Position numbers and translations under genes: made by a program. The notes under the pieces were generated by a model. The model was given only the letters and a program-made list of their open reading frames with translations. It was not told the DNA's origin and made no database searches. From Alternaria dauci (Eukaryota; Ascomycota; Dothideomycetes; Pleosporales; Pleosporaceae): a DNA stretch of 64,000 nt. Positions 11,930 through 55,100 of the stretch are shown in pieces. The stretch spans positions 2,604,001-2,668,000 of the forward strand of contig NC_091278.1 of the NCBI RefSeq assembly GCF_042100115.1, in the 5' to 3' direction. Numbering within the stretch: position 1 is the first letter of the stretch; every line of letters begins with the position of its first letter.

Positions 11930-12200
11930 GTATACTAAAGTTAGATTTAATAGAGAAAAGAACTATAGGCTACCTTATCTAAAGGTTAATTAGTAGTAGC
12001 TTAGATTATCCTTTAGTCTAAGGTTTAGGGGTTTAGTCTAAGTATTATTTAGATATATTAACTATAAACTATATACCCTATATATATAACTAAAATACTA
12101 TTAAAGAAAAAGCTAATTAGGCTTTAGCCTATTATAACCTCTTACTATATAACTATACTACTAATTTTTTTTAAAACGCTTTATATAGGTAGTAAGCTAT
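11930..12200 (+). repeat. Repeat family A, fully RIPed copy
   Basis: It matches, in inverted orientation, the sequence at about 37430-37690. Shared anchors include AAAGGTTAATTAGTAGTA and GTTTAGGGGTTTA. Where the partner keeps C/G bases, this copy has T/A. The type of element is not recognised. Confidence 0.7.
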
Positions 12201-12432
12201 TATAAGAGGTAGTTATAAGTAATAGTATTTACTTTATACTATAAGAGAATAGTAGAGGATAGCTCTATATTCTAATAGTATACTAGGGAAAGTAATAATA
12301 ATAATTCTTACTAGTCTTCCTACGCGTAAAGTATAGGTTAAGAGTAAGTTCCCTATCTATAAAGATAATAAGAGAAGTAATTATATTAAGACCTTAGTAC
12401 CCTTCTAGCTAAGCTATATCCTATACGTTATA
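12201..12432. repeat. Solo LTR, 232 bp, RIPed (nested-gypsy family)
   Basis: Same 232-bp unit as the LTRs at 50601-50832 and 57068-57299, and inverted at 37840-38071. It begins TATAAGAGGTAG and ends CTATACGTTATA, the RIPed form of TG..CA ends. The flanks GCTAT and TCTAT are only an imperfect target duplication. No internal element sequence adjoins it, so it is a solo LTR. Confidence 0.75.
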
Positions 12433-12715
12433 TCTATCCCTTATATATCTTTTTATATATCCTAATAAGTTATCCTCTTATTATAGGTTTAAGAGAGAGC
12501 TAATAGTATACCTAGTTATATTATAATTACTATACACCTCTACATCTTTATAATAGTATTATTTAATTAACTCTAAACTTTTTAGTAACTTTATAGTATA
12601 AGAAGTTATCTCTAAGTTTTTATAAATTTAAATATTTAACTACTTCTTAAATTAGATCTATATTAGTAGAGTAACATTATATTAAAGTTAGGATGTAATA
12701 TTAGTGGGGGGGGGG

Positions 12716-14960: not shown

Positions 14961-15956
14961 TCACCTCGCCTCCCTACCCTTCACTAAAAGGTTTCCCCTC
15001 AACGCCTCCAACTCCGCCTCACCAAGCCCACACACCTCCTTTATATACTGTTCCGCGCCACCAAACCGCTCATCTAGCATATCTAAAATACGCAATATAC
15101 TCCCCTCCCTTGCCCCCACTATCCTCAACGAAGCCTGCCGCCCCTTTTCTAGAATCTTAGGCGAAACCACCACCCCTTCACCTTTATCCCTATCCGCACC
15201 ACTAACAAGTCTGGCAACATCCTTAGCCAACACTAACTAACCTAACGCCTGCGCCGCTATATACCGCCTAAACCCTAGACTCGCTATTAACCTGCCTACA
15301 GCCCCCTCCCTCACCTCCGCTAACCCTAGTTCCGTTGTGTAATACTCCTTCGCAATGTCCGCACGCGGCAAACCCAAAAAGTTAAACAACACCCTACAGA
15401 AAATCCCCGTCCAGTCTTTCCCCGCCAAACAATGCACTCACGCGCCTATCTTCGGCTCCTCTTCCGCTTAACTAGGTAGTATACTAAGCCTAACTAAATA
15501 ACGCAGGATAGTACCAAAAGCCGTCCCCCTATCCCCTAGAATATCCGCATAAGCTTCTACAAACCCGCGTACGTCTTCGTCTATGTACTTTGCGTACCGT
15601 TTAGCCAGTCTCTTAGGGCTGTAATCGCTCTCTTTAAACATTGGTGTCCAGGTGCGTTGCACGCCTGCTGCTTCCATGGCGTGCATCTAGTCACCATCTT
15701 TCCCACCTGCAATCTTGTTCACCTCGGGCGCACTCCTAAGATCGAAAACATAGACGACGCCTAGGTCGTGGAGGGCGGTCCAGCCCGCGGTATCTAAGCC
15801 TAAGACCTCGGCACTGCGGAAGAGGAGGCCTGGAAGGAGCGTGGCGCCGGTGGAGATGGTGAGGGAGTGGGTGGCTAGGCGGAGGTTGTTGATGTTGGGG
15901 ATGTGTGTGTAGAATGGTGGGGAGGGGAGAGGTGGTTGCAGATCTAACGTCGGCAT
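14961..15956 (-). pseudogene. Tyrosine/serine phosphatase gene inactivated by RIP-like transitions
   Basis: One continuous 332-codon frame, without any indel, runs from the ATG at 15956 to the stop at 14961, interrupted by four in-frame stops (15687-15689, 15468-15470, 15438-15440, 15237-15239). It belongs to the Tyr_phosphatase_3 type: N-terminus PTLDLQPPLPSPPF and LLPGLLFRSAEVLGLD, VVYVFDLRSAPEV in the middle, and a P-loop reading HCLAGKDWTGIF where the family has HCxAGKDRTG. At least three stops are consistent with single C-to-T changes (CAG, CAA or CGA codons), and the catalytic Arg-to-Trp is a CGG-to-TGG change. Composition becomes more AT toward the flanking block. Once a cytosolic phosphatase gene, it cannot encode an active enzyme now. 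Confidence 0.85.
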
Positions 15957-16319
15957 GGTCAGATGGTTGCTTGTTTGGTTAGTTAGTTGTAGAAGACCGG
16001 AGTTGCGGGATAGGCGGTTGCGAAAAGAGTGATGCGTTGTGGGATTCCACTTCCGTGTGTGCAAGCAATTGCGGTGGTTGTAAAGCCTTCGAGGAATAAT
16101 CTAGCCTCCTACTATAACCTAGTATATGAGCGAGCGAAGATTTTTCTTAACACGTGCGTCCGTCTAGCTCTTATGCACCAACCCGTCGTCCGAGGTCGAC
16201 CTTTGTAGTCGCTAGATACCCTGTGCGGCGCCCTACCATCTCACTCCTACACTATAGTGCCCGTGCGCGTGACGAGCCACTTCGTGAGACGAGCTACCCT
16301 ACTATCCTAACATTACGCG
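15957..16319. other. Transition zone into AT-rich block
   Basis: Upstream flank of the phosphatase pseudogene. GC content falls progressively and TpA rises. No feature apart from this gradient. Confidence 0.4.
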
Positions 16320-16899
16320 TTGTCCTATCTTTAATACGTTATAACTTAACTACTATAACTATAATCTAAGAAATAATTAAATACATTAAATTATATAAGA
16401 CTAGTAATAATTTCTTATAGAACTAAGTTATAAAGATATATAGTATTAATTAAATAATACTATTATAGTAGTATAAGGTTTATAAGTCTCTTATAAAGTT
16501 TAAATAGTAAACTAATAATATATTAACTTTTAATAAGAGTATAAAGTTATTAGTTATATAAAGAAGGTAATAAAAGATAGTTTACTACTTATAAGGTTTA
16601 TTTTAAAGAATTTTAGTAGCGTAAATATATAGTATAAGGTTTTAGATAGTAAAGTTAACTAGTTTTACTATTATAATCCTAAAAAGCTTACTATTAAATA
16701 AGGTACTAGTATTAGTTATAAATACTACTTAGCTATTTATTATAGATAGAAGGAATCTTATTTATTTAATAAAGGAATTAAGACTAAATACCTCTTAATA
16801 AGTATTAATAAATAAAAGATAACTAGTATAAAGTCTACTAGGTTATATAACTATTATTACGCTAAGGCCTAACATCTAGGATAGCAGCGCCTAAGGGAT

Positions 16900-17056
16900 A
16901 GTAGCGCTATTATAACTATCTATAGTAGGAGGGATAGAAGGGATAGTAGGAATAGATTATAATAGGTATAAGAATATGTTAGATCTTATTATTATATTTA
17001 TTATAGTTAACTTAAATAGTTTATCTCTTATATAGATTATTAACTAGTTATTCTAT
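16900..17056 (+). repeat. Fragment of a RIPed LTR of the young gypsy family
   Basis: Read on the plus strand, it aligns with the minus strand of the intact LTR (around 18000-18110): GGTATAAGAAT, then the TTTATCTCTTATATAGATTA and ACTAGTTATTCTATT segments, with C/G replaced by T/A. The match breaks off abruptly at both ends, so it is a remnant of an older insertion. Confidence 0.75.
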
Positions 17057-17689
17057 TATTTCTAGATTTAGTATTATTTAATATATTTCCTAAGTAAGTT
17101 AGTAACCTAAGTAAGTTAGTAATACTAAACTAGTATACTACTTATATATAGTAATTATATAGCGTATAATATACTTATTAAGAATCCTAGTAAGCTAATT
17201 TATTCTTTAAACTTATTACTATCATTAGTATTATCTATTTCTACCTTATAGATATAGGAGTTATATCCTTTTTTACTATAATATCTATAGTACCTTACGC
17301 TATATACCTTACCTATAGGCCCTTTACTAGTATTATACTTCTTACCTACCCTTTTAGTAATTAAGTCTTATACTTCCTCTACTATTAAGGTCTCCTCTAT
17401 CTAAATATACTTATATTTTCTTAACTAATACTTTATAAGCTTATTAATTATATTTTATATATATACCTATCCCTCCTATAATAATACTATATTATATATA
17501 ATCTACTATACGCCTTTACTTAGCTACCTAATCTTTTTATCTAATAAGCTTATAAATAATTTATAATAGTTTTATATCCTCTATTAAATAAGTATAACCT
17601 ACGCCTTAATCTTATTTATATTATATAGTTATTATAAACCTAAAGGAAGGGAACCTATAAGCTATATATAAAAAGGATAATAGGAAACA

Positions 17690-17765
17690 CCTAGGCGGGT
17701 TAGCCTAGAGGTTAGTACTTTAAGGACTAATAGATAACACTACCTATAGAGTACGTAATCCTATA
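17690..17765 (+). repeat. Possible tRNA-derived SINE head (RIPed)
   Basis: A TAGCCTAGAGGTTAGTAC stretch closely resembles a tRNA A-box, and about 40 bp later GAGTACGTAATCC is a weak B-box-like sequence. It does not fold into a convincing tRNA as it stands. A decayed tRNA-related SINE is one explanation. Confidence 0.25.
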
Positions 17766-17851
17766 GTCTTAGTAGAAAGCTACTATAGGATAAAGTTATA
17801 TATATCCTATAATATACTATAGAGTACTATAATATACTACACGTAGGATAT

Positions 17852-18325
17852 TGTTACACGGGGGTTTGCTATACTTCTCTAAGCTCGGTCCGTACTAAGG
17901 CGAGATAGATATTGGCGATAGTCCGTGAGGTAGGATATGGAATGATCAGGTGGAAAAGAGTTATCGTTGTAACCAAAGAATAACGCTACCAATTCTATAA
18001 CAATAGAATAACTAGTTGACAATCTGTGTAAGAGATGAACTATTTGAGTTGACCACAACGAGTGTAATAATGAGATCCAACACATTCTTATACCCCTTGC
18101 CTTAGGTCCTGTCCTCCTTGCCCTCCCTTCCAAGAGGGAGGCCTGGGAGGGCCGTGGCCTCCCGATCCTCACTGGCCTCCCGGAGGCCAGGTCTTGGCGG
18201 GATGCCATTCCTTTCACGTGATCTGGGCCCCGCCCTAGATCCACTTTCGTCCAACGTGTCCGCCCGATGGTCTTCCTTCATGCGACCTGCATGAAAGGAA
18301 GGCAATTCCTTGTTACCTTGTAACA
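17852..18325 (-). repeat. 3' LTR of the young gypsy element, 474 bp
   Basis: Starts TGTTAC and ends GTAACA on either strand. It contains an interrupted palindrome (CTGGCCTCC-C-GGAGGCCAG, 18172-18190) beside a second GC-rich inverted pair, and a TATAAG box read on the minus strand. ORFs across it are incidental. Confidence 0.95.
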
Positions 18326-18381
18326 TTACCCCCCCTCTTAGGCGTATCGTCTCGATACCCTGGATTATCGTTTTCCCGCGC

Positions 18382-21300
18382 CTAGTCCGGCGGCGGTGGT
18401 GGAGGTATAGCTACTCTGGTGGTGTCGTATCCTCTCTTTCCTCCTTTCCTCACTTTCCCTGACCATGCCCAAGGTTCAGACTTCTCGACGCGTCCGTACC
18501 CAGAACTCGACTCAACAGCGCCAGGCTCGTGCTGACCGTATCCGCCAACAAGGGAACGAGATGACCTTTCGTTGCAAGCGGTGTGAGGAGAAGAATCTTC
18601 GTTGTTTCGTGGACACTGCCTCTGGGCAGTGTGCGGGCTGTATTTCGGTGAAAGCTGAGTGTAGCTTATTTGTGACTGAGGAAGAGTGGGAGAAGGTTGA
18701 GGCTGAAAAGCGCGAGAAGCGCTTGGCGCTTCTTCGAGCTGAGGCCGAGGTCGCTCGACTTCGGCTGGAAGTGGCAGAGACTGAGGCGCGAGAGCGAGCA
18801 TTCGCTGATCGAGATCACGCCATTTTGAGTCTTCAGGATCGCGCGAAAGAGCAAGCCGAGGGGAACTCTGCCCCTGGTACGGACTTTCAACCAACTGAAC
18901 CATCGCTACCCGGACTGTCGACTGACTTGGGCTGGTTGCAGGATGACGCTTCTTTCGATCCTTTTTCTGAATTCTTTTCTTCCCTGGAGGATCCGCTCCT
19001 CCCTTCTCTGGGTGTCTCCGATGGTACTCACGTACCTGTGACTTGCAGTTCGTCAAATTTTCTTTTGGTTCCCAAGTGTTCTGGCTCTCTGGCCATCCTA
19101 GCCACTTGACCAAGTATTTCCACTGACGACCGATTTTCCGCAGGTCCCTGATTTCTTCGACCTCGTATTCATCGTCCTCGAGCTCTATGTCGGTAGCTAG
19201 CTCGGCATCTGGAGGTGCTCTTTCCAGGAGTTTCTTGTGAAAGACAGGGTGGATGCGCATGCCTAGTGGGAGTTGGAGTTTGTAATTTACGTTGCCCATT
19301 TCTTCTAGAACTTCGAATGGTCCTACTCGGAGGTTGTCCAGTTTCTTGCTTGGTCGCTTAGTTTTCAAGTTCTGTCGTGACAGGAAAACTTTGTCCCCCT
19401 TCTTAAAGGTTGGTCCCTCAATCCTTTGCTTATTAGCCGCTTTGGCTGTTGTGAGGTTCCTGTGAGCGATGTTCTTGCTCAATTCGTCGTGCAGTTCTCG
19501 CATCAAGCGGGCTTTGTCGTCTGCACCTACTGCGATACTCTCTATATCTTTCGGATCTCGATGAGCAATCGGCTCATATCCGTAGTTCGCATAGTGTGGC
19601 GAGTACTTAGTCGTCGCAGACCTAGTACTATTGTAGGCCAATTGTGCTGTCGGCAAGAGTTCAACCCAGTTGTCTTGCAGCTTGTTGGCGTACATCCTCA
19701 GATACTGTTCCAGTGTCTGGTTCGTTCGTTCCGTCTGGCCATCTGTTTCGGGGTGGAAGCTAGTCGATAGCTTCTTCTTCACACCCAACTTTGCCAGGAA
19801 TGTGTTCCAATACTTGGAAGTGAACAGTTTATCACGATCGGTGATGAATTCTTCAGGTATCCCATGTTCTGACATAAGTGCCTTGCTGACCTCATACGCG
19901 CATTCTTCTGCCGTAATGGTTTCTTCCGTGGGCACAAATTTTGCTCCTTTCGTGTGACGACACACGATGACTAGGACTGTGTCGCATAATCTTCCGGATC
20001 CTGGTTCTAACGACTTCGGGAGCTTCACTATGAAGTCCATTGTTACGCTGCTCCATGGTCTCGTTGGTGGCGGTAAGGGTTGTAACAGGCCATAGGGCTT
20101 ATGTCTCTTGGGTTTGTTCTGATGACAAGCCAAACAGTTGCCTAGGACGTCCTGCACCTTCGCTCGCAAGCGTGGTATCGCAAACACCTTTGATAGTCGC
20201 CTGACCATTTCTTCTAGCGATGCATGTCCATACTCTGGGGACTCATGCAGTTCCTTGATGAGACTCGATCTCATGTGTGGGGGTACATATGTTCGATCGC
20301 TTCGAATCATATCTCGGTACTCTCGCTTGTCTTGTAACAGTTCGTCGGAGCCGTTCTCGTCAGGCTCGAACTGCCAGCTGGCCGCTCTCTGCTGCCACTG
20401 CTGCTGAAGTGTTTCTACCCGCTCGGCCACCTTAGCTATCTTAGCTAGTTCCGGCTGGTTGTAACGTAGTGTGCCATCAGGCATCTTCTTGAACATGGCG
20501 TCATGTGGTTCCTTATGATTTTCCTCGCGTAAGTCGGATCTCCTGCTTAAAGCATCCGCAGCTCCGTTGAGCGTTCCAGCGCGGTGAGTTATCTTGAAGT
20601 CGAACTGAGCTAGCATCTCAGCCCATCGGACTTGTCGTCGGTTGAGTTTCTTCGTTGTCATGAAACCTGCCAAGTTCTGGTGATCGGTAAAAACCTCGAT
20701 CTGGTGTGGTAGTCCTAGCAAATAGACTTCCCACTGTTCAAAGGCATCGACTACTCCTAGTAGCTCCTTATCGTGAACGTCGTAGTTTAGTTCTGCTCCA
20801 GAGAACTTTCTTGAGTGGTAGAACACTGGTCTCCACTTTTTGTCTGGGCACTGCTGCGACAATACAGCTCCGAGTGCATAATCTGACGCGTCGGTCTCGA
20901 CTCGCGTCTCTCGCTTTGGGTCGTACATCTCTAGTACTGGTGCCTCGAGGAATATCTGCTTGATTCGATCAAAAGCCTCCTGATGTTCCTCGTTCCATTT
21001 GAAACCAACTTCCTTTTTCGTGATCTCGGAGAGAGGTGTTGTGATCTTTGAGTAATCCTTGATGAACTTCCGGTAGTAGTTGGCAAATCCTAGGAAGGAT
21101 TGCACGTCCTTGACTGTTTTGGGCGTTGGCCACTCCTGTACAGCCGCTGTCTTCTTTGGGTTCATCTTCACCCCCTCTGTGGATATTATGAAGCCTAGGT
21201 ATTCCGTTTCCTTCGTGTGGAATTCGCACTTCCCCGGCTGCAGGTACAGCTTGTATTCCTTAAGCTTCCTGAGCACTTTCTTGACATGTTCCACATGTTC

Positions 21301-22544
21301 TTCTAGCGTCCCGCTGGAGTATACCAGCACATCGTCGATGTACGCTGTGACGAAGATTCCAAGGTACTCGTGAAGAGCGTTGTTGATGACTGACTGAAAC
21401 GTTGCCGGGGCATTCGTTAACCCAAAAGGCATTACTGTGTACTCGAACAGTCCATATTTCGTTTTGAACGCTGTCATCCATTCGTGTCCTTCCTTGATCC
21501 TGATTCGGTGAAATCCTTCCCGAACGTCGAACTTCGTAAACCACTTGGCTCCCTGGAGTCGATCCATGAGCTCGGTTATTAGTGGTAAGGGATATCGGTT
21601 CTTCCGAGTAACGCTGTTCAACCTTCGGAAGTCGACACATAGTCGCCACTTCCCGTTAGGCTTCTTTACGAACAAGATGGGTGAGGCCATTGGGCCTGAT
21701 CCCGGTCGGATAAATCCCTTCTTCAGATTCTTCTGGATGTACTCCCTTAGCTCAGCATCGTGCTCGGGCGATATGGGATACATAGGTCCTGGGCTTAACT
21801 TTGCCCCTTCATCTAGGATGATCTCGTGATCCCAATCCTGATGGTCTGCCAAATCCGTGGCTTCGTTTTCCTCGAAGAGTTCTCTAAACTCGTCGGTCTG
21901 ATACTCTCTTGGTATCTCTAGTGGTAAGGGTCCTTCCTTCGTGGTCGCGACTCGTCTTATCCATATGACTCCTACTCTTTGAGGGTCCTTCTCATAGATT
22001 CTCATGATCTTATGAGGCGAGATCTTGCCGAACCTCCCGTCCTGGGTTGAGCTCTGGTCCTTCGGGCTCACTCTTTGGCGTACTCCAGCAACCTTGTGCA
22101 CAGGTTCTCTTCTGAGTATCGTCTTCATTCGCCAGTCGATGGCGGGGTTATGGGCATCTAGCCAGTCATAACCAATCAACATGTCTAGTCCTCCTAGTTC
22201 CATTATGTCGATATTCATTTGGCACTCTATGCCAGCTATCCGTAGCTTTGTTGATTCAGTTTCCATCCGTATCATGCCGTTTCCATATTCCATGGGTTTC
22301 TCGTCGGCTAACAGTACCGATACTGGGTTCTTCTTAACCCGGTAGGGTAGTTCGTGTTTCTCCACCACTCTGGGTGAGATCATCGTCCGTGCGGCCCCGC
22401 TATCTACGAGCGCCTCGATGTTTCGTCCCTGTACAGATACGGTCGTGAGCAGCTGCTTCACCCGACCATCGGTATCCTGCACCTTCCTAAGGGTCGTTTT
22501 AGGACTGCCTTCACCAGCGTGACCCTGTCCCTGGCGGCATCCTA
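18382..22544 (-). CDS. pol: Gypsy Pol: protease, RT, RNase H, integrase, chromodomain (expressed by -1 frameshift)
   Basis: The frame is open from the gag slippery site (22551-22545) to 18382; no ATG is needed because the product is probably a Gag-Pol fusion. Domains in order: aspartic protease (ALVDSGAARTMIS); reverse transcriptase (FTKFDVREGFHRIRIKEG, VMPFGLTNAPATFQ, catalytic YIDD); RNase H (ETDASDYALGAVLSQ); integrase zinc finger (H..H..CLACHQNK) and core; chromodomain ending YLVKWLGWPESQNTWEPKENL. About 220 further residues rich in Pro, Ser, Gln and Arg follow, ending in PPPPPPD, with no known domain. They lie exactly opposite the antisense ORF at 18465-19109, so the frame there may be open only because of that gene. 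The true Pol end may be near 19000. Confidence 0.95.
18465..19109 (+). CDS. Antisense ORF in gypsy element: Zn(II)2Cys6-like plus coiled coil, 214 aa
   Basis: Runs opposite to pol, between the chromodomain and the 3' LTR; the ATG has a good context (GACCATGCCC). After a basic N-terminus, cysteines at residues 37, 40, 47, 56, 59 and 66 give C-x2-C-x6-C-x8-C-x2-C-x6-C, the spacing of the fungal Zn(II)2Cys6 binuclear cluster. Residues about 70-130 are a strongly charged heptad-rich helix (EEWEKVEAEKREKRLALLRA, then EVARLRLEVAETEARERAF), expected to form a coiled coil. The tail is acidic and aromatic (LGWLQDDASFDPFSEFFSSL), like an activation region. The last roughly 90 nt overlap the chromodomain on the other strand. 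A DNA-binding or regulatory role is inference; a capsid-related or decoy role is possible. Composition is clearly protein-like, unlike a chance shadow. Confidence 0.7.
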   Translation: MPKVQTSRRVRTQNSTQQRQARADRIRQQGNEMTFRCKRCEEKNLRCFVDTASGQCAGCISVKAECSLFVTEEEWEKVEAEKREKRLALLRAEAEVARLRLEVAETEARERAFADRDHAILSLQDRAKEQAEGNSAPGTDFQPTEPSLPGLSTDLGWLQDDASFDPFSEFFSSLEDPLLPSLGVSDGTHVPVTCSSSNFLLVPKCSGSLAILAT

Positions 22545-22552
22545 GTTTTTTG
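22500..22552 (-). promoter_or_regulatory. -1 ribosomal frameshift signal between gag and pol
   Basis: In the gag frame the codons TCA AAA AAC precede the TAG stop, giving the slippery heptamer A-AAA-AAC at 22551-22545. A -1 slip enters the pol frame, which stays open to the protease. Immediately downstream, TAGGA/TCCTA, GCC/GGC and CCAG/CTGG pair as one interrupted hairpin (22544-22500). The upper stem starts six nucleotides after the heptamer, the usual spacer. Confidence 0.8.
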
Positions 22553-24482
22553 ACTGCTTACCTTTCCTGTACTTAGGAAAGTAGCCTGTGTCATTCTTTG
22601 AGCTGTAGTGCGTCAAGCACCTGTCGTCGTAACAGAAGCTCCAATGAATGTTCTGGTGAGGTATCTCCTCCCTGGTGATCCTCTTCCTTGGTTGAGCCTT
22701 CTTGGCCTCGTGAATCTCACAATCTGCTACCTCGCAGATGTTTGATGATAGGGTGCGATGGTAATAGTCATCCACCTTGTGTGCTTCCTTGAGCTGCTTG
22801 CGATGGAAGTCACACCCGTTCCTGCATTGCATCCATAGAAGTCTGTAGTGGATCTCCACTTTCTCTGGTTCGTGTAGATGGCAGATGTCTGCTAGACATT
22901 CGTCTGCCCAGAGGTTCAGGTGGCAGCACCGGTCCTGGTCTGTCCTGCAATCCTCCTTATCTTGCTTATGGAACTCGCAATTTATCTTGCAGTCATACCA
23001 ACACAAATCCTTGTGATCCTTGGTATCTTCTACTTCGTGGGCTTCTTGGTCCTCGACCTCAGCCATTGGATCATCGAAGTAGGGTTGTTGGTGTATCGCC
23101 TGATACCCAATTTCTTCGGCATTCGGGCCGGTAATCATGATTCGTTCGCGAACCGTGCATTCGTCGGCGTAGTGTGTCTTGTTACCACATACCCAACATT
23201 GGTTGTTGGCTAATCGTTCCATCACGATGGTGCCTTTGACCTTCCAGTCAGTCTTCTTTGGCTGGCCCATGGTGAGAACTTCGTTGTCCGGTTTAACTCT
23301 TGGGACGATTTCGTAGCCTTCCTTATCCTCCAAGCGTGCCTCCTCGTATAGGTCTAAGTCGCTTAGGTTGTCATCCGGCTCTATCCCGGCCGGGTAAGGC
23401 GTGCCTTGTCTGATCATCCGGATCTTGATAGCTGCCTGTTTGACTTGTTCTTCTTCGCAATCCCTAGCGAAGTGTCCTGTCTTCCCGCATCGGAGACATG
23501 CTTTGTTGTCGTAACGCCGCTGGCGTTCTTCCTTGGAGAGACCGTCGTGTCTTTTACCTCCTCGGGTTTTCTTGTCTTTGGCCTTCTCTTGTACCTTGCC
23601 GGTCATGATGGCGTCGCCATCCCTGTCGAATCTACCACGCTGTTTCTTCATGTTGGGCAGGTTGGGTCGGAAGTATTTCTTCTGATCGTTTCGTTCCCAC
23701 AACCTGTTGTCGATACGCGTGGCTAGCTCAATCAGAGCGTGTAGTGTCCCGGGCTTATCGTGGTGTACAAGGCCGTCCTTGACATTCTCTTTGAGGCCTG
23801 CTTCGAATACCGTTCGAAGTGCCGCATCATCCCAATCGATCCGTGCTTGTAGTTGCTTGAATTCCGCCGTGTATGCCGATACTGACGAGGTCTGCCTCAG
23901 GCGAGTGATCTTCTTCTCTGCCTGGTTCTGAGCGTCTACTTCTCCGAAGATGCGTCCCATCTCTTGCTTAAACTCTGTCCAACTTGCGAACAAGGTACGG
24001 GTTCCTTCTTTGGTGCCCATGTGTTCTGCATCCAGCAGATAGTCGTCCACATAGGGTTGCATCCAATTGGAAGCCTTATCCTTCATGTATGTACTGGCCA
24101 TGAGGATCTTTTCCTGGTCGTTGGGTACCTCGTTATACTCGCAGTACAGGTCGATGTTGGTGAGAAATACTCGTAGCTTTTCTCGTTCTCCACCGTATTT
24201 CTCTGGTGACGCTATCTTGGGTTTCTTTGTAGCAACGGGTCGTTCGTTAGGGGTCATCATCAGTTGCCCTGCAAGCTGATTGATCATTGCCTGCATCTCA
24301 GCAATCTGCTGAGCCTGCGTGGTTGTGTGTTGCCTAAGATTCCTGAGCTCGGTGACGTTAGGGTTCTCTCCCTCGTCATCGGATGCTTCCAGCATCTCAT
24401 CATTTTCTGGGGTAGGGCGTGCTGGCGTCGAGGGTCCCTGACCCTGAGCCCTGTTGTTCTGCGCGTTTCCCTGATGAGCCAT
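22542..24482 (-). CDS. gag: Gypsy Gag with two zinc knuckles and five C-C-H repeats, 646 aa
   Basis: The start ATG lies in AACAATGG. After a disordered N-terminus and a short coiled coil comes the retrotransposon gag core (REKLRVFLTNIDLYCEYNEV, FASWTEFKQEMGRIFGEVDA, TSSVSAYTAEFKQLQARI). A basic stretch leads to CLRCGKTGHFARDC and, about 100 residues later, CWVCGNKTHYADEC, both C-x2-C-x4-H-x4-C knuckles that bind RNA. The C-terminal 160 residues, which ordinary Gags lack, carry five C-x3/4-C-x2-H units (residues about 498-505, 529-537, 553-560, 583-591, 617-625). Gag forms the virus-like particle; the function of the extra cysteine repeats is unknown. It ends at the frameshift site. Confidence 0.93.
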   Translation of the reverse strand: MAHQGNAQNNRAQGQGPSTPARPTPENDEMLEASDDEGENPNVTELRNLRQHTTTQAQQIAEMQAMINQLAGQLMMTPNERPVATKKPKIASPEKYGGEREKLRVFLTNIDLYCEYNEVPNDQEKILMASTYMKDKASNWMQPYVDDYLLDAEHMGTKEGTRTLFASWTEFKQEMGRIFGEVDAQNQAEKKITRLRQTSSVSAYTAEFKQLQARIDWDDAALRTVFEAGLKENVKDGLVHHDKPGTLHALIELATRIDNRLWERNDQKKYFRPNLPNMKKQRGRFDRDGDAIMTGKVQEKAKDKKTRGGKRHDGLSKEERQRRYDNKACLRCGKTGHFARDCEEEQVKQAAIKIRMIRQGTPYPAGIEPDDNLSDLDLYEEARLEDKEGYEIVPRVKPDNEVLTMGQPKKTDWKVKGTIVMERLANNQCWVCGNKTHYADECTVRERIMITGPNAEEIGYQAIHQQPYFDDPMAEVEDQEAHEVEDTKDHKDLCWYDCKINCEFHKQDKEDCRTDQDRCCHLNLWADECLADICHLHEPEKVEIHYRLLWMQCRNGCDFHRKQLKEAHKVDDYYHRTLSSNICEVADCEIHEAKKAQPRKRITREEIPHQNIHWSFCYDDRCLTHYSSKNDTGYFPKYRKGKQSKN

Positions 24483-24535
24483 TGTTGAATCTTAATCGGG
24501 CTGTCCTGTTGGTTAAACGTCCACTGATATCCAAG

Positions 24536-24545
24536 GTGGTCAAAG
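24536..24545 (-). promoter_or_regulatory. Primer-binding site, candidate Tf1-like self-priming
   Basis: Two bases after the 5' LTR, the minus strand reads TTGACCAC. It is not a TGG-starting tRNA complement. Its 8-nt complement GTGGTCAA occurs on the minus strand inside the LTR (24744-24751), about 37 nt downstream of the start of the TATAAG box, that is near the predicted transcript 5' end. Confidence 0.45.
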
Positions 24546-25020
24546 TGTTACACGGGGTTAGGCTATACTTCTCTAAGCTCGGTCCGTACTAAGGCGAGAT
24601 AGATATTGGCGATAGTCCGTGAGGTAGCGTATGGAATGATCAGGTGGAAAAGAGTTATCGTTGTAACCAAAGAATAACGCTACCAATTCTATAAACGATA
24701 GAATAACTAGTTGACAATCTGTGTAAGAGATGAACTATTTGAGTTGACCACAACGAGTGTAATAATGAGATCCAATACATTCTTATACCCCTGGCCTTAG
24801 GTCCTGTCCTCCTTGCCCTCCCTTCCAAGAGGGAGGCCTGGGAGGGCCGTGGCCTCCCGATCCTCACTGGCCTCCCGGAGGCCAGGTCTTGGCGGGATGC
24901 CATTCCTTTCACGTGATCTGGGCCCCGCCCTAGATCCACTTTCGTCCAACGTGTCCGCCCGATGGTCTTCCTTCATGCGACCTGCATGAAAGGAAGGCAA
25001 TTCCTTGTTACCTTGTAACA
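24546..25020 (-). repeat. 5' LTR and promoter of the young gypsy element, 475 bp
   Basis: Nearly identical to the 3' LTR. On the minus strand a GGGTATAAG box (about 24790-24782) is the likely promoter, with transcription expected to start about 30 nt further on. The right border is followed by the target duplication GATAT. Confidence 0.93.
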
Positions 25021-26499
25021 GATATATAAGATAATATAAGACTTATAAGATAACTATAATACTTATTAAGTATATAGCTTAGGTACTAAACCCTTCTAGC
25101 TTAGTATATTTAACTTAATCTTAGTATAAAACTCTAGTAGTTAATTTAAAGATTTTACTTTATTCTTATATAACCTCTTATAATATTATATTAATCTTCT
25201 AATTATACTATTATACTAACCTTATCTATTATACTTACTTATTCCTAAGAACTAACTCTTAGGTTATCTAAGGATAACCTTTATAATAGTATCTATACGT
25301 CTTATATACTCTATATTAGTAATAATAGTACTAGAGTCTATAACCTTATATTAAGCTTTAATAGAATAGCTTCTAGGTTATATAGGACTAGTTTAGTACC
25401 TCTAAAGCCTACCTTAATATTCTCTACTATTAAAGACTATTTAAAAGCTAGCTTAAATACTTAGAGGAAGGATTCTTTACTAATAAAATTAACGTAGTTA
25501 CGTACTAAGGCTAAGATCTAGTTACTATACCTACGCTTTAGTAGTGTAAAGTAACTAATATTAAGAGGCTATAGTAGGTGTAATAAATATAGAGGTATAT
25601 AGTAAAGGATAATATTCTTCTCCTTATAAAGATCTTAGAATTTAAGTAAACTATAGCTCTTATACTTATTAACTATAAGTCGCTAGTATATACCTATAGT
25701 ACTTAACTTTATATACTTATTAAAGAACTTTAACTAGGTAAGAGTAAGCTAATTATTTATCTAGCTATTAGGGCTTACTTTAAGGATCTAATTACGTAGT
25801 AGGTCTTTAAACTAGACGTTAATAAGTATACTACCTATAAAGATAATAAAGGGTAGGAGTAGGTAACCTATAGCCCTAACGCCTTAGATAATAGTAACCT
25901 ACTTATAGTTACCTAGCTAGATTATCTTCTTTTTCCTTAATCCTTCTAAGCTTATAATAACTATCTATAATATAACCTTACTTATTATAAAGCTAGTCTT
26001 ATTAAAGTTAGAGATATTACTATCTATAATCTTTTATTTTAGTTTTATCTTTTATATTAAATTAAACTAGTACTAGATAGCTATAAGATCTTTATAAGTA
26101 GCTTACTAATAGTTATATCGTTAGCTCTAGTACTTCTAGAGCTTAGGAGTTTACTTAATAAAGTTATTAACTTAGTTCTTACTAATAAGGTTACTACTTT
26201 TTAATTAAAGAAATCTATCTACTATTTCTTATATAATAGACTTTAAGGGTATAAGACTTTATATAGACTACTTAAGAATACTCTAAACTATAACTTCCTC
26301 TTTTAGTTTTATTATATACTTGAAGTTTACTTTAAAGTTATATTATATATACTTTCTAGTATAATAGTTAATTTATATACTTTTAGGTATATTATATATT
26401 ATTATAGCTTAATTAATACTATATACGTAATATACTTTAATATTAAAAATAGTAAATTAAAAATTAACTTTAGTATATATCTTTTAAGATTATTATAGT

Positions 26500-52150: not shown

Positions 52151-55100
52151 AATTTTTTCTTTTTTTATATTTTTTACTTTTTATATACGTAGATACCTAA
52201 AATCTTATACTATAGGATTTACGCCTTAAGTGCGTTATAAATTCTTTTATTATACTCTTTTTTATTACTTTATATACTATAAGCTTTATAATACTTTAAA
52301 GTCTTAGAGTAGTTCTTCTATATCTTTAAAGTTAAAGGCTAAGGTCTAAGTATCCTAAGATTTATTATATTCTTTCTATCTTAGCTAGTACTATAACTAG
52401 CCTTTTCTTATATATTTTCTAAGGATTTTTTTAACTTCCTAAACTTCTTAACCTTCTAGGGTAACTTCTAGTAGTTATATATTATTATTATTATTTTTCC
52501 TAGAATTCTATTATTCTAGAAGAGATACGTAGAAGATATTATAAATATAATAATAAGGTAGTAGAAGTAAGTAATATACCTATAACCTAACTATGTTCTA
52601 GACTTAAAATAGTCTAATATACTTACTAGAAAGCTTTTTACTAGGTTAGTTAACTAGGTTAATATACTTTATACTAAGGAGAATAAGGTCTCCTTTATAA
52701 GAAATATCTAGTTTATATTTCTTATTATAGTAGTAGCTTTAATATTCTTATACTTTTAATAGATAATTTATTACTACTATATATATACTATATATACGCT
52801 AAACTCTATCTACTATATTTAGTACCTCCCCCTCTTACTTACTATCCTTAGGAGGTATTATAAGTAAGGGGTACTTACTATAAATAAGGTAGAAAGGAGT
52901 AGCTTTTATTAATTTATAAATAGAGTTATTATAAGTAAATTATACTATTAATAATAATTAGACTTAGTTATCCTATTTTTTAGATGTAAAAATTCTTAAG
53001 TATTACTCTATAGTCTAATTCTAGTGTTTAGTTTACCTATCTATCTATAGATAGAAGGCTATACTAAGCTTATACTTTACTTATAGTTAGTAGTAGATCT
53101 CTATCTAAAATATAGAAGTAAATACTAAGCCTTAGTCTAATATAATACCTTTCTATACCCTGTATTTTAAAATAACCTAATTAAAGTAGGACTCTATAAA
53201 CTATTTTATATCCTAGGTTTTTAAAGTAGGTATATAGATAACTATCTTAGAGAAGTAGTTTATAATTATAAGTACTATATTAAAGACGTAACCTAATCTA
53301 TCTTTTAATAGTAGTAATCCTATAATAAAATCTAAAGAGACTTCCTTAAAGATATCTTCTAAGATTAGTAGTAATACTAGCTTACTATATTTACTATATT
53401 ATATAGCTTTACTTTTTTTATATATAGTATAAGTCCTTATATATTCCTAGATATCTTAGCTTAGTAATAGCTAATAGCAGTACCTATTAATAAGTTTAAG
53501 TATCCTTTATACACTAAAGTTACTTACTATATATATATTATAGTATTAGGATAAAATCTCCTACTTAATAGCTAGTTCCTCTAGAATATAAATTCTACTA
53601 TTATATCTTAGGACTTCTTTATAATTAGTATACTAAACTTATATACCTCTATAGCTTTAAGTATATAAAACCTACTTAGAGTTTATAACCTACTACTAGG
53701 TAAAGGTATCCCTTTACTATAACTAAAGTAGAATATCTAGTAAAGCTTTAGACTCTACTAATATAAGTTTACTACTAACTAATACCTTAGCTAGTAAGTA
53801 TAGTATATATAGTATATATCCTATAGTACTAGTAGTTAGGACTTAACTAGTTCTATAAATATTAGTAATATATATCTTATATATACTTACTAGACTAAGC
53901 CTAAGTATAGATCCTCTTACTCTACTAAGTTTATTCCTTACTAGAAGCTTATTCTATAAAGTAAGTAATAACTAAGTTAAGGATATATTCTCTTACTTAT
54001 AATCTACTCTTCTTAAAGGTCTATCTACTAGGTTAGTATTCCCTAAATAGTATTTTACTTTAAAATTAAATACTCCTAAATAAAGTACCTAATATACTTA
54101 ATAAGGCTAAGCCTCTATATAGTGTATATAGTGTATAAGTTATTATAATCTATTAAAACTTAGATAGTATAATAAGTACCCTCTAGGTAATACTACTACC
54201 ATTTAAAGCTTTATACTATATCTAGAAGTTTAAGATTTTATACCTTATAATTTAGTTTTATAGCCTAACACTTTCTTAAGATAAATACTACTAAGTACTA
54301 TTTCTTATCTTTAAATAGCTAAGAAAGTATACTAAAGACTATAAATATTAAGGTATCTATCTTAATATAAATCTATAGTAATTTATTAAAGTAGTATAAG
54401 ATAGGTATATATATAAAGCGCTCTTTTAGCTTAGTAAAAGTAGCTTCTATAGTATTATCTTAGTAGAAGACTTAATTCCCTTTTAGAATATTAGTAAGGG
54501 TAGCTATTTCCTAAGTATAGTACTTAATAAAGTATTAATAGAAATTAGTAAACACTAAGAAGGATTATAGCCCCTTAATACTAGTTAGGGTTAGCTGTTA
54601 GAGTACTATCTCTATACGTATAGGATTAGCGTAAATACTACTCTTTATAATAATAAATCCTAAGAAATAGACTTTAATAGCTATAAAAGTATACTTCTCT
54701 AAGTTTATATAAAGTTTAGCTTCCCTAAGGGACTAAAGTATAGTATATACTATACGCTAGTATAGCTTAAGATTATTATTATAAGTATAGATAAGAATAT
54801 TATTAAGGTAGACTATATAAATATAGTCTAAATATCTACTAAACGCCTTATTAATATAGGCCTAAAAGCTTACTAGAGTATTTATTAGCCTAAAAGGTAT
54901 GACTAAGTACTTAAAGTAGCTATATTAAGTTTAAAAAGCTATCTTCTATTTATCTCTTACTTTTATTTATATATAATAGTAGGCGTCCTTAAGATCTAGT
55001 ATTATATAGTATTATATACCTAATAGGTAATCTAGTATCTCTCTAATAAGTAGGAGTAAGTAATAATCTTTTATAGTAACTATATTTAGACCTCTATAAT

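Follow-up and report, generated by a model that had tools for sequence, protein, structure and literature searches.

In HTLV-1, the antisense bZIP factor HBZ is expressed from the 3' LTR, and plant Ty3/gypsy elements hold extra antisense open reading frames (ORFs), such as the aORFs of the Tat lineage, which, as far as known to us, are located in spacers of non-chromoviral elements. The VANC proteins of plant VANDAL transposons are anti-silencing proteins and are thought to change together with their own cis targets. Coding sequence does at times have long ORFs on its opposite strand and, to our knowledge, a demonstrated signature of selection is seldom found in antisense genes other than those of a few retroviruses. 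The locus described here is a fungal gypsy case, in which what is almost certainly a real, selected antisense gene lies over the end of pol and its chromodomain, with an internal control provided by decayed copies that are free of the signature.

The window, as the whole analysed stretch of 64,000 nucleotides is called here, corresponds to C7:2604001-2668000 in a genome of 34.9 Mb and 10 contigs, whose fungal character is read from its chromodomain gypsy family, its numerous Zn2Cys6 genes and its RIP-like decay. It holds an LTR-bounded Ty3/gypsy element on the minus strand (17852-25020), flanked by a 5-bp target site duplication, GATAT, read directly beside the LTR ends (17847-17851 and 25021-25025). 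The element is of the chromodomain type, having a short duplication, two LTRs, a gag ORF with a zinc knuckle (22542-24482, minus) and then a pol ORF (18382-22383, minus) with reverse transcriptase, RNase H, integrase, chromodomain and a tail, as seen by the ORF list and domain scan. The chromodomain (19015-19167, minus; pol residues 1073-1123) matches PF00385 with an E of 2e-14, and the tail at its 3' side (18382-19014, minus) is open, with amino acids changing freely according to the pol-frame dN/dS. By comparison of the LTR pair, the 3' LTR, TGTTAC...GTAACA, is located at 17852-18325 and the 5' LTR at 24546-25020, both on the minus strand. A polypurine tract adjoins the 3' LTR (18329-18338, minus; a pyrimidine run on the plus strand, found by inspection). 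From this LTR to the antisense ATG there is a 139-bp leader (18326-18464, plus), pyrimidine-rich ahead of the ATG, which is presumed to be the 5' UTR or promoter of the antisense ORF.

The preliminary description considered the element young. This agrees with the tie of four copies, the window's included, for the top score over 919 bp, whereas its own LTRs are identical at 466 of 475 positions. The nine differences between them (17852-18325 vs 24546-25020) include small clusters other than C-to-T changes, which hints at inter-subfamily recombination rather than age. Beside the element, AT-rich tracts filled with TA, at 16300-17850 and 12000-12700, resemble RIP-decayed repeats, and 17001-17073 matches the element LTR in reverse at 81%. 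An 89-aa ORF at 15687-15956 (minus) is, by eye, what we take to be the start of a tyrosine-phosphatase-like gene, decayed downstream; further away, 52511-53350 (C7:2656511-2657350) is a decayed gypsy pol remnant with 28% identity and 26 stops.

The antisense ORF, defined from the ORF list and the comparison of copies, runs from ATG to TGA at 18465-19109 on the plus strand and encodes 214 amino acids. It had been placed opposite the non-domain end of pol, which holds for most of its length, opposite the pol tail, except that its last ~95 bp enter the chromodomain. The pattern search recovered exactly the six-cysteine array claimed beforehand, C-x2-C-x6-C-x8-C-x2-C-x6-C (18573-18662, plus), formed by C37, C40, C47, C56, C59 and C66; in all six frames of the 64-kb window, the regular expression for Zn2Cys6-like spacing has a single match, which is this ORF. 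The protein agrees with the Zn2Cys6 spacing C-x2-C-x6-C-x5-12-C-x2-C-x6-8-C, which was matched by none of 200000 composition shuffles of the 214 residues. The basic flank and the acidic tail described earlier are likewise present, with eight K/R against two D/E in residues 1-35, and ten D/E and no K/R in the acidic, aromatic C-terminal region at residues 135-190 (18867-19034, plus). This latter region is of low confidence and without secondary structure in the AlphaFold2 model, and is possibly an activation region. Regarding the long heptad-rich helix of the earlier claim, a long charged helix is predicted at residues 72-133 (18678-18863, plus), the only part modelled with confidence by AlphaFold2 (block means of 82-96 over residues 71-130 and 92-96 over 81-120), but its heptads are weak: 11 hydrophobic residues occupy a/d positions in the best register of the window protein (P = 0.18) and 12 in that of the diverged protein of copy L061 (P = 0.03).

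The DNA search of the genome gave 40 scored matches, among which 30 are full length with at least 94% identity, with one partial match at 100%. The protein search gave at least 86 matches at E<=0.1, three of them weak and host-like; these three, as well as the partial matches, were left out of the codon tests. At least 22 matches in the genome hold a full-length, stop-free antisense ORF. In a base-by-base comparison of 30 window-type copies, including that of the window, 21 are stop-free and 13 have one haplotype; as for matches to the pol piece, 21 of 99 are without stops. Seven diverged copies were examined (L061, L062 and L065-L069), chosen by their match to the antisense protein, so that the frequency of copies lacking the gene cannot be read from them. 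L061 has 77% amino acid identity and an open antisense ORF, with Cys3 lost and pol interrupted by stops; the other six form one subfamily, marked by an insertion of 7 aa and by many stops. Conservation of the cysteines between copies, on which the first reading had been made to depend, is seen across subfamilies for most positions: Cys3 is replaced by Tyr in three of the seven (L061, L062 and L065) and several cysteines are lost in L067, these exceptions all being in copies that show RIP-like decay. Both strands stay in frame across the indels of 3 and 21 bp, which hence do not discriminate between them.

Positions 1, 2 and 3 of the antisense codons correspond to positions 1, 3 and 2 of pol. 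As antisense position 3 is thus pol position 2, selection on the antisense frame and selection on pol predict opposite patterns. Transversions were counted because RIP-like C-to-T changes inflate transitions. Over 18465-18865, the window and L061 differ by 22/11/38 transversions at antisense positions 1/2/3, and none of 20000 permutations reached 38. Each of the six insertion-subfamily copies gave 15/9/31 against the window, with base-matched permutation P values of 1e-4 for L062 and 5e-5 for L066; since these six share most of their differences, they count as one comparison and not as independent ones, and the permutations against the window cover three of the seven diverged copies (L061, L062 and L066). 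When L061 was compared with L062, L065 and L066, 13/6/33 transversions were found each time, a pattern reached by none of 10000 permutations in each case. NG86 dN/dS between the window and the seven diverged copies over the same interval is 0.12-0.21 for the antisense frame and 1.4-1.9 for the pol frame, values that are rough because synonymous distances are near saturation. The comparison of dN/dS by strand that had been proposed, made here with copies within this genome, places the amino-acid constraint on the antisense frame and not on pol.

The nine decayed copies of the window subfamily served as a control, where a third-position excess at P<0.05 over 18465-18865 was found in none of the nine; the pooled RIP-type changes were 60/31/40, against 65/32/33 expected from context-matched placement. 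Over the whole ORF, one of the nine has an excess (L058, P = 0.02), with pooled counts of 77/39/65 against 81/45/55 expected. Seven decayed window-type copies showed no fewer stops than expected from RIP (P 0.24-0.99), with no sign of protection. For the first ~130 codons, the antisense frame of the window family is kept by protein-level purifying selection. Its final 80 codons (18866-19106) have diverged too little within the family for the codon test, and at 18866-19014, where codon-position P values are 0.15-0.45, the subfamilies differ too little for a decision.

A counterpart of this antisense reading, with the same selection signal, is carried by a second gypsy family, in copies that hold stops. 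The pol of this family matches at 39% identity (C7:164536 and C7:93804), or 44% in the fetched pieces, and three copies were compared at their 3' ends: L071 (C7:163000-164900), L072 (C7:92400-94200) and the more decayed L075 (C7:157400-159300; match at C7:159031). In L072, the antisense reading at 945-1442 of the piece has the same place and phase as the window ORF and a similar order of parts, namely a basic N-terminus, [Y]-x2-C-x6-C-x9-C-x2-C-x6-C, a stretch rich in K/R/E and an acidic tail, which ends opposite the end of the chromodomain. L072 and L075 differ by 3/0/13 transversions at antisense positions 1/2/3, and none of 10000 permutations reached 13; the distal part (1131-1442) contributes 2/0/11 and the proximal part 1/0/2, which is not enough for a decision, and L071 and L072 show zero transversions between them. 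The three copies have four internal stops in common in the antisense frame, and six in the pol frame after the chromodomain; these are of the RIP type, and RIP could have made all of them, but an open ancestor of this antisense reading is not shown. Of the six cysteine positions, one reads Tyr in L072, two in L071 and five in L075. In the translations of two other gypsy relatives, L073 and L074 (pol 34% and 30% identical), no cysteine array was found by eye or by regular expression, a negative that is not firm because both carry stops.

The cysteines had been read as the pattern of GAL4-type clusters, an assignment that did not gain clear support. The antisense protein is similar to GAL4-type regulators (PF00172) in its six-cysteine spacing, the nearby basic region, the helix after the cluster and the acidic tail. 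However, it scores 12 bits with PF00172, below the curated cut-off of 21 (E 0.24 in a scan of 24736 models, arithmetically ~1e-5 if this model alone were asked), and no PF00172 match was listed for L061, which lacks Cys3, for L057, which lacks Cys1, or for an L072 piece starting after its cysteines, which makes these three weak tests. A profile was made from 14 host Zn2Cys6 domains, out of 151 PF00172 matches in the genome (E<=1), and the similarity of the window protein to it beyond the cysteines is not significant, as its score is equalled or exceeded in 152 of 2000 cysteine-fixed shuffles, compared to 3 of 2000 full shuffles; for the second-family reading of L072, with stops marked X, 16 of 2000 cysteine-fixed shuffles were as good. 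Moreover, the proline before Cys4, found in all 14 host domains, is absent, and E-E-K replaces the mostly basic loop that follows Cys2 in them. Modelled alone, the cluster gave one short helix and two strands with middling confidence (mean pLDDT of 69), a prediction that is not clearly the two-helix binuclear zinc fold, and structure-match searches returned no useful match. The product is probably a zinc-binding, six-cysteine protein, and we do not file it as GAL4-type.

Besides the coding frame, U3 and the region adjoining it are variable as a block. Transversion density in three comparisons is 4-24 per 100 bp over 18052-18852 and 0-3 over 18852-20500, with 1-7 in the R-U5 end (17852-18052). 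The module so delimited, with approximate edges at 18052-18852, comprises U3, the polypurine tract, the leader and the first ~130 antisense codons, and diverges between subfamilies that have a common pol. As a further observation, the window compared to L061, L062 and L066 is a sharp mosaic, where the divergence is strong in U3 and in the initial two-thirds of the antisense gene and pol is nearly free of transversions; such a mosaic across three subfamilies seems to need more than one exchange, and a template switch within the antisense gene would bring U3 with it. The module resembles a cassette of regulator and target, the linkage being explicable by adjacency and template switching alone. 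It is a tentative and somewhat doubtful suggestion that it is an exchangeable cassette, joining U3 to the DNA-binding-like half of a self-encoded antisense regulator, which subfamilies would swap onto a common pol, in an independently evolved parallel to HBZ.

The module holds candidate sites. The palindrome GTATCG-TCT-CGATAC (18344-18358) is present with C/T or G/A changes in six of the seven diverged copies, none of which has it unchanged. The core CACGTG of TCACGTGA, at 18214, is kept in four of the seven; both are speculative as regulator sites. A 19-bp palindrome, CTGGCCTCCCGGAGGCCAG, lies at 18172-18190 of the window-type U3 and was not seen by eye in the alignment of the other subfamilies, and CGG/CCG triplets of U3 had no apparent conservation between subfamilies, also by eye.

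Taking these features together, we give about an even chance to the reading that the ORF is an accessory gene of long standing in a gypsy lineage with a chromodomain, lies antisense to the end of pol and encodes an HBZ-like regulator of the element's own U3 and leader. Like HBZ, it is a protein-coding antisense gene under selection, starting beside the 3' LTR. Its transcription would start in the 3' LTR or in the 139-bp leader and run into the element in reverse direction, and its product would be a small nuclear protein, zinc-binding through six cysteines, helix-forming and acidic-tailed, which may bind the U3 and leader, probably as a dimer, and tune sense transcription as HBZ does; having the cysteine and helix half in one block with U3 could keep the regulator with its matching target. 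The narrower statement that the product acts on its own LTR or on expression of the element is held at slightly short of even. An appreciable probability, clearly under one half, belongs to a selected gene with a product that is not an LTR transcription factor and would serve instead in anti-silencing, as a Gag or nucleic-acid-binding accessory, or in copy-number control: protein constraint says nothing of the target, GAL4-type membership is not supported and the model of the cysteine region is middling, although the acidic tail free of K/R, the basic N-terminus and the linkage to U3 would fit a DNA-bound regulator better. Somewhat unlikely, and compatible with the self-regulator reading rather than exclusive of it, is dual coding, where the pol tail would also be needed as a disordered extension tolerant of sequence change, both strands being used. 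The pol frame is indeed open beyond chance, in 0.2% of codon permutations that keep the antisense protein and its codons (0.28% with resampled codons), so the tail may be such an extension, its amino acids not being conserved, and the pol-frame stops opposite the ORF in L061 and L062, three each, are TAG or TAA only, a type that RIP can produce. On the other hand, dN/dS in the pol frame exceeds 1, this frame is interrupted opposite the ORF by 10-20 stops in each of the remaining five diverged copies, with TGA among them in L065 and L067, the pol end of L061 is not that of the other subfamilies, and the second family has its six common stops after the chromodomain.

Two other explanations were rejected. 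It is very improbable that the ORF arose by chance and was kept open by the codon use of pol, without a product. When the pol-tail protein is kept and codons are resampled from gag-pol usage, 8% of draws leave the antisense frame open, compared to just 0.08% when the tail's own codons are permuted; given this difference between nulls, openness alone is weak evidence for an antisense gene, and it is the codon-position test that carries the case. There, the changes concentrate at the third position of antisense codons, the second of pol codons, whereas constraint on pol would give the opposite, and this pattern, the permutations and the decayed-copy control decide against chance, despite the 8% of the less strict null and a final third of the ORF too little diverged for the test. 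Recent capture of a host Zn2Cys6 gene, or its hitch-hiking in a single element, the latter also proposed in the preliminary description, is extremely improbable. The genome has its 151 PF00172 matches, and the three weak non-element matches of the protein search include host genes with the Zn2Cys6 pattern, but these reach only E 0.02 to 0.1 and no close host copy was found; in addition, the gene is found in three subfamilies, and since a reading that agrees with it in place, phase and layout is carried by a family with 39-44% pol identity, any capture was old.

Searches for relatives of the antisense protein, in collections not fungal by design, gave none: the PDB sequence search had a best E of 0.62, plasmid tblastn returned no relative, none of 8 pattern matches in IMG/VR contigs and none of 57 in prokaryote genome contigs was confirmed, and two weak NCBIfam matches were both under the cut-off. 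The Rfam scan of the window had no match. If the gene regulates its own LTR, retroelement self-control and the matching between regulator and target could be studied in fungi as a simple system.

Compared to the plant Tat-lineage aORFs, the window ORF is likewise an additional gypsy ORF on the antisense strand, but it is fungal, overlaps pol and the chromodomain and encodes a six-cysteine array. With VANC it would have in common an element-encoded protein that possibly changes together with its own cis targets; VANC, however, is a different protein, from a DNA transposon, and in the gypsy element the joint change is an observation of linkage only. With HBZ of HTLV-1 the likeness is that both are antisense genes of a retroelement near the 3' LTR, with a nucleic-acid-binding-like motif and helical and acidic regions. 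This resemblance is drawn from sequence and implies no descent: in the window protein a cysteine array stands instead of a bZIP and the acidic region is C-terminal, and its gene overlaps the gypsy pol tail and chromodomain.
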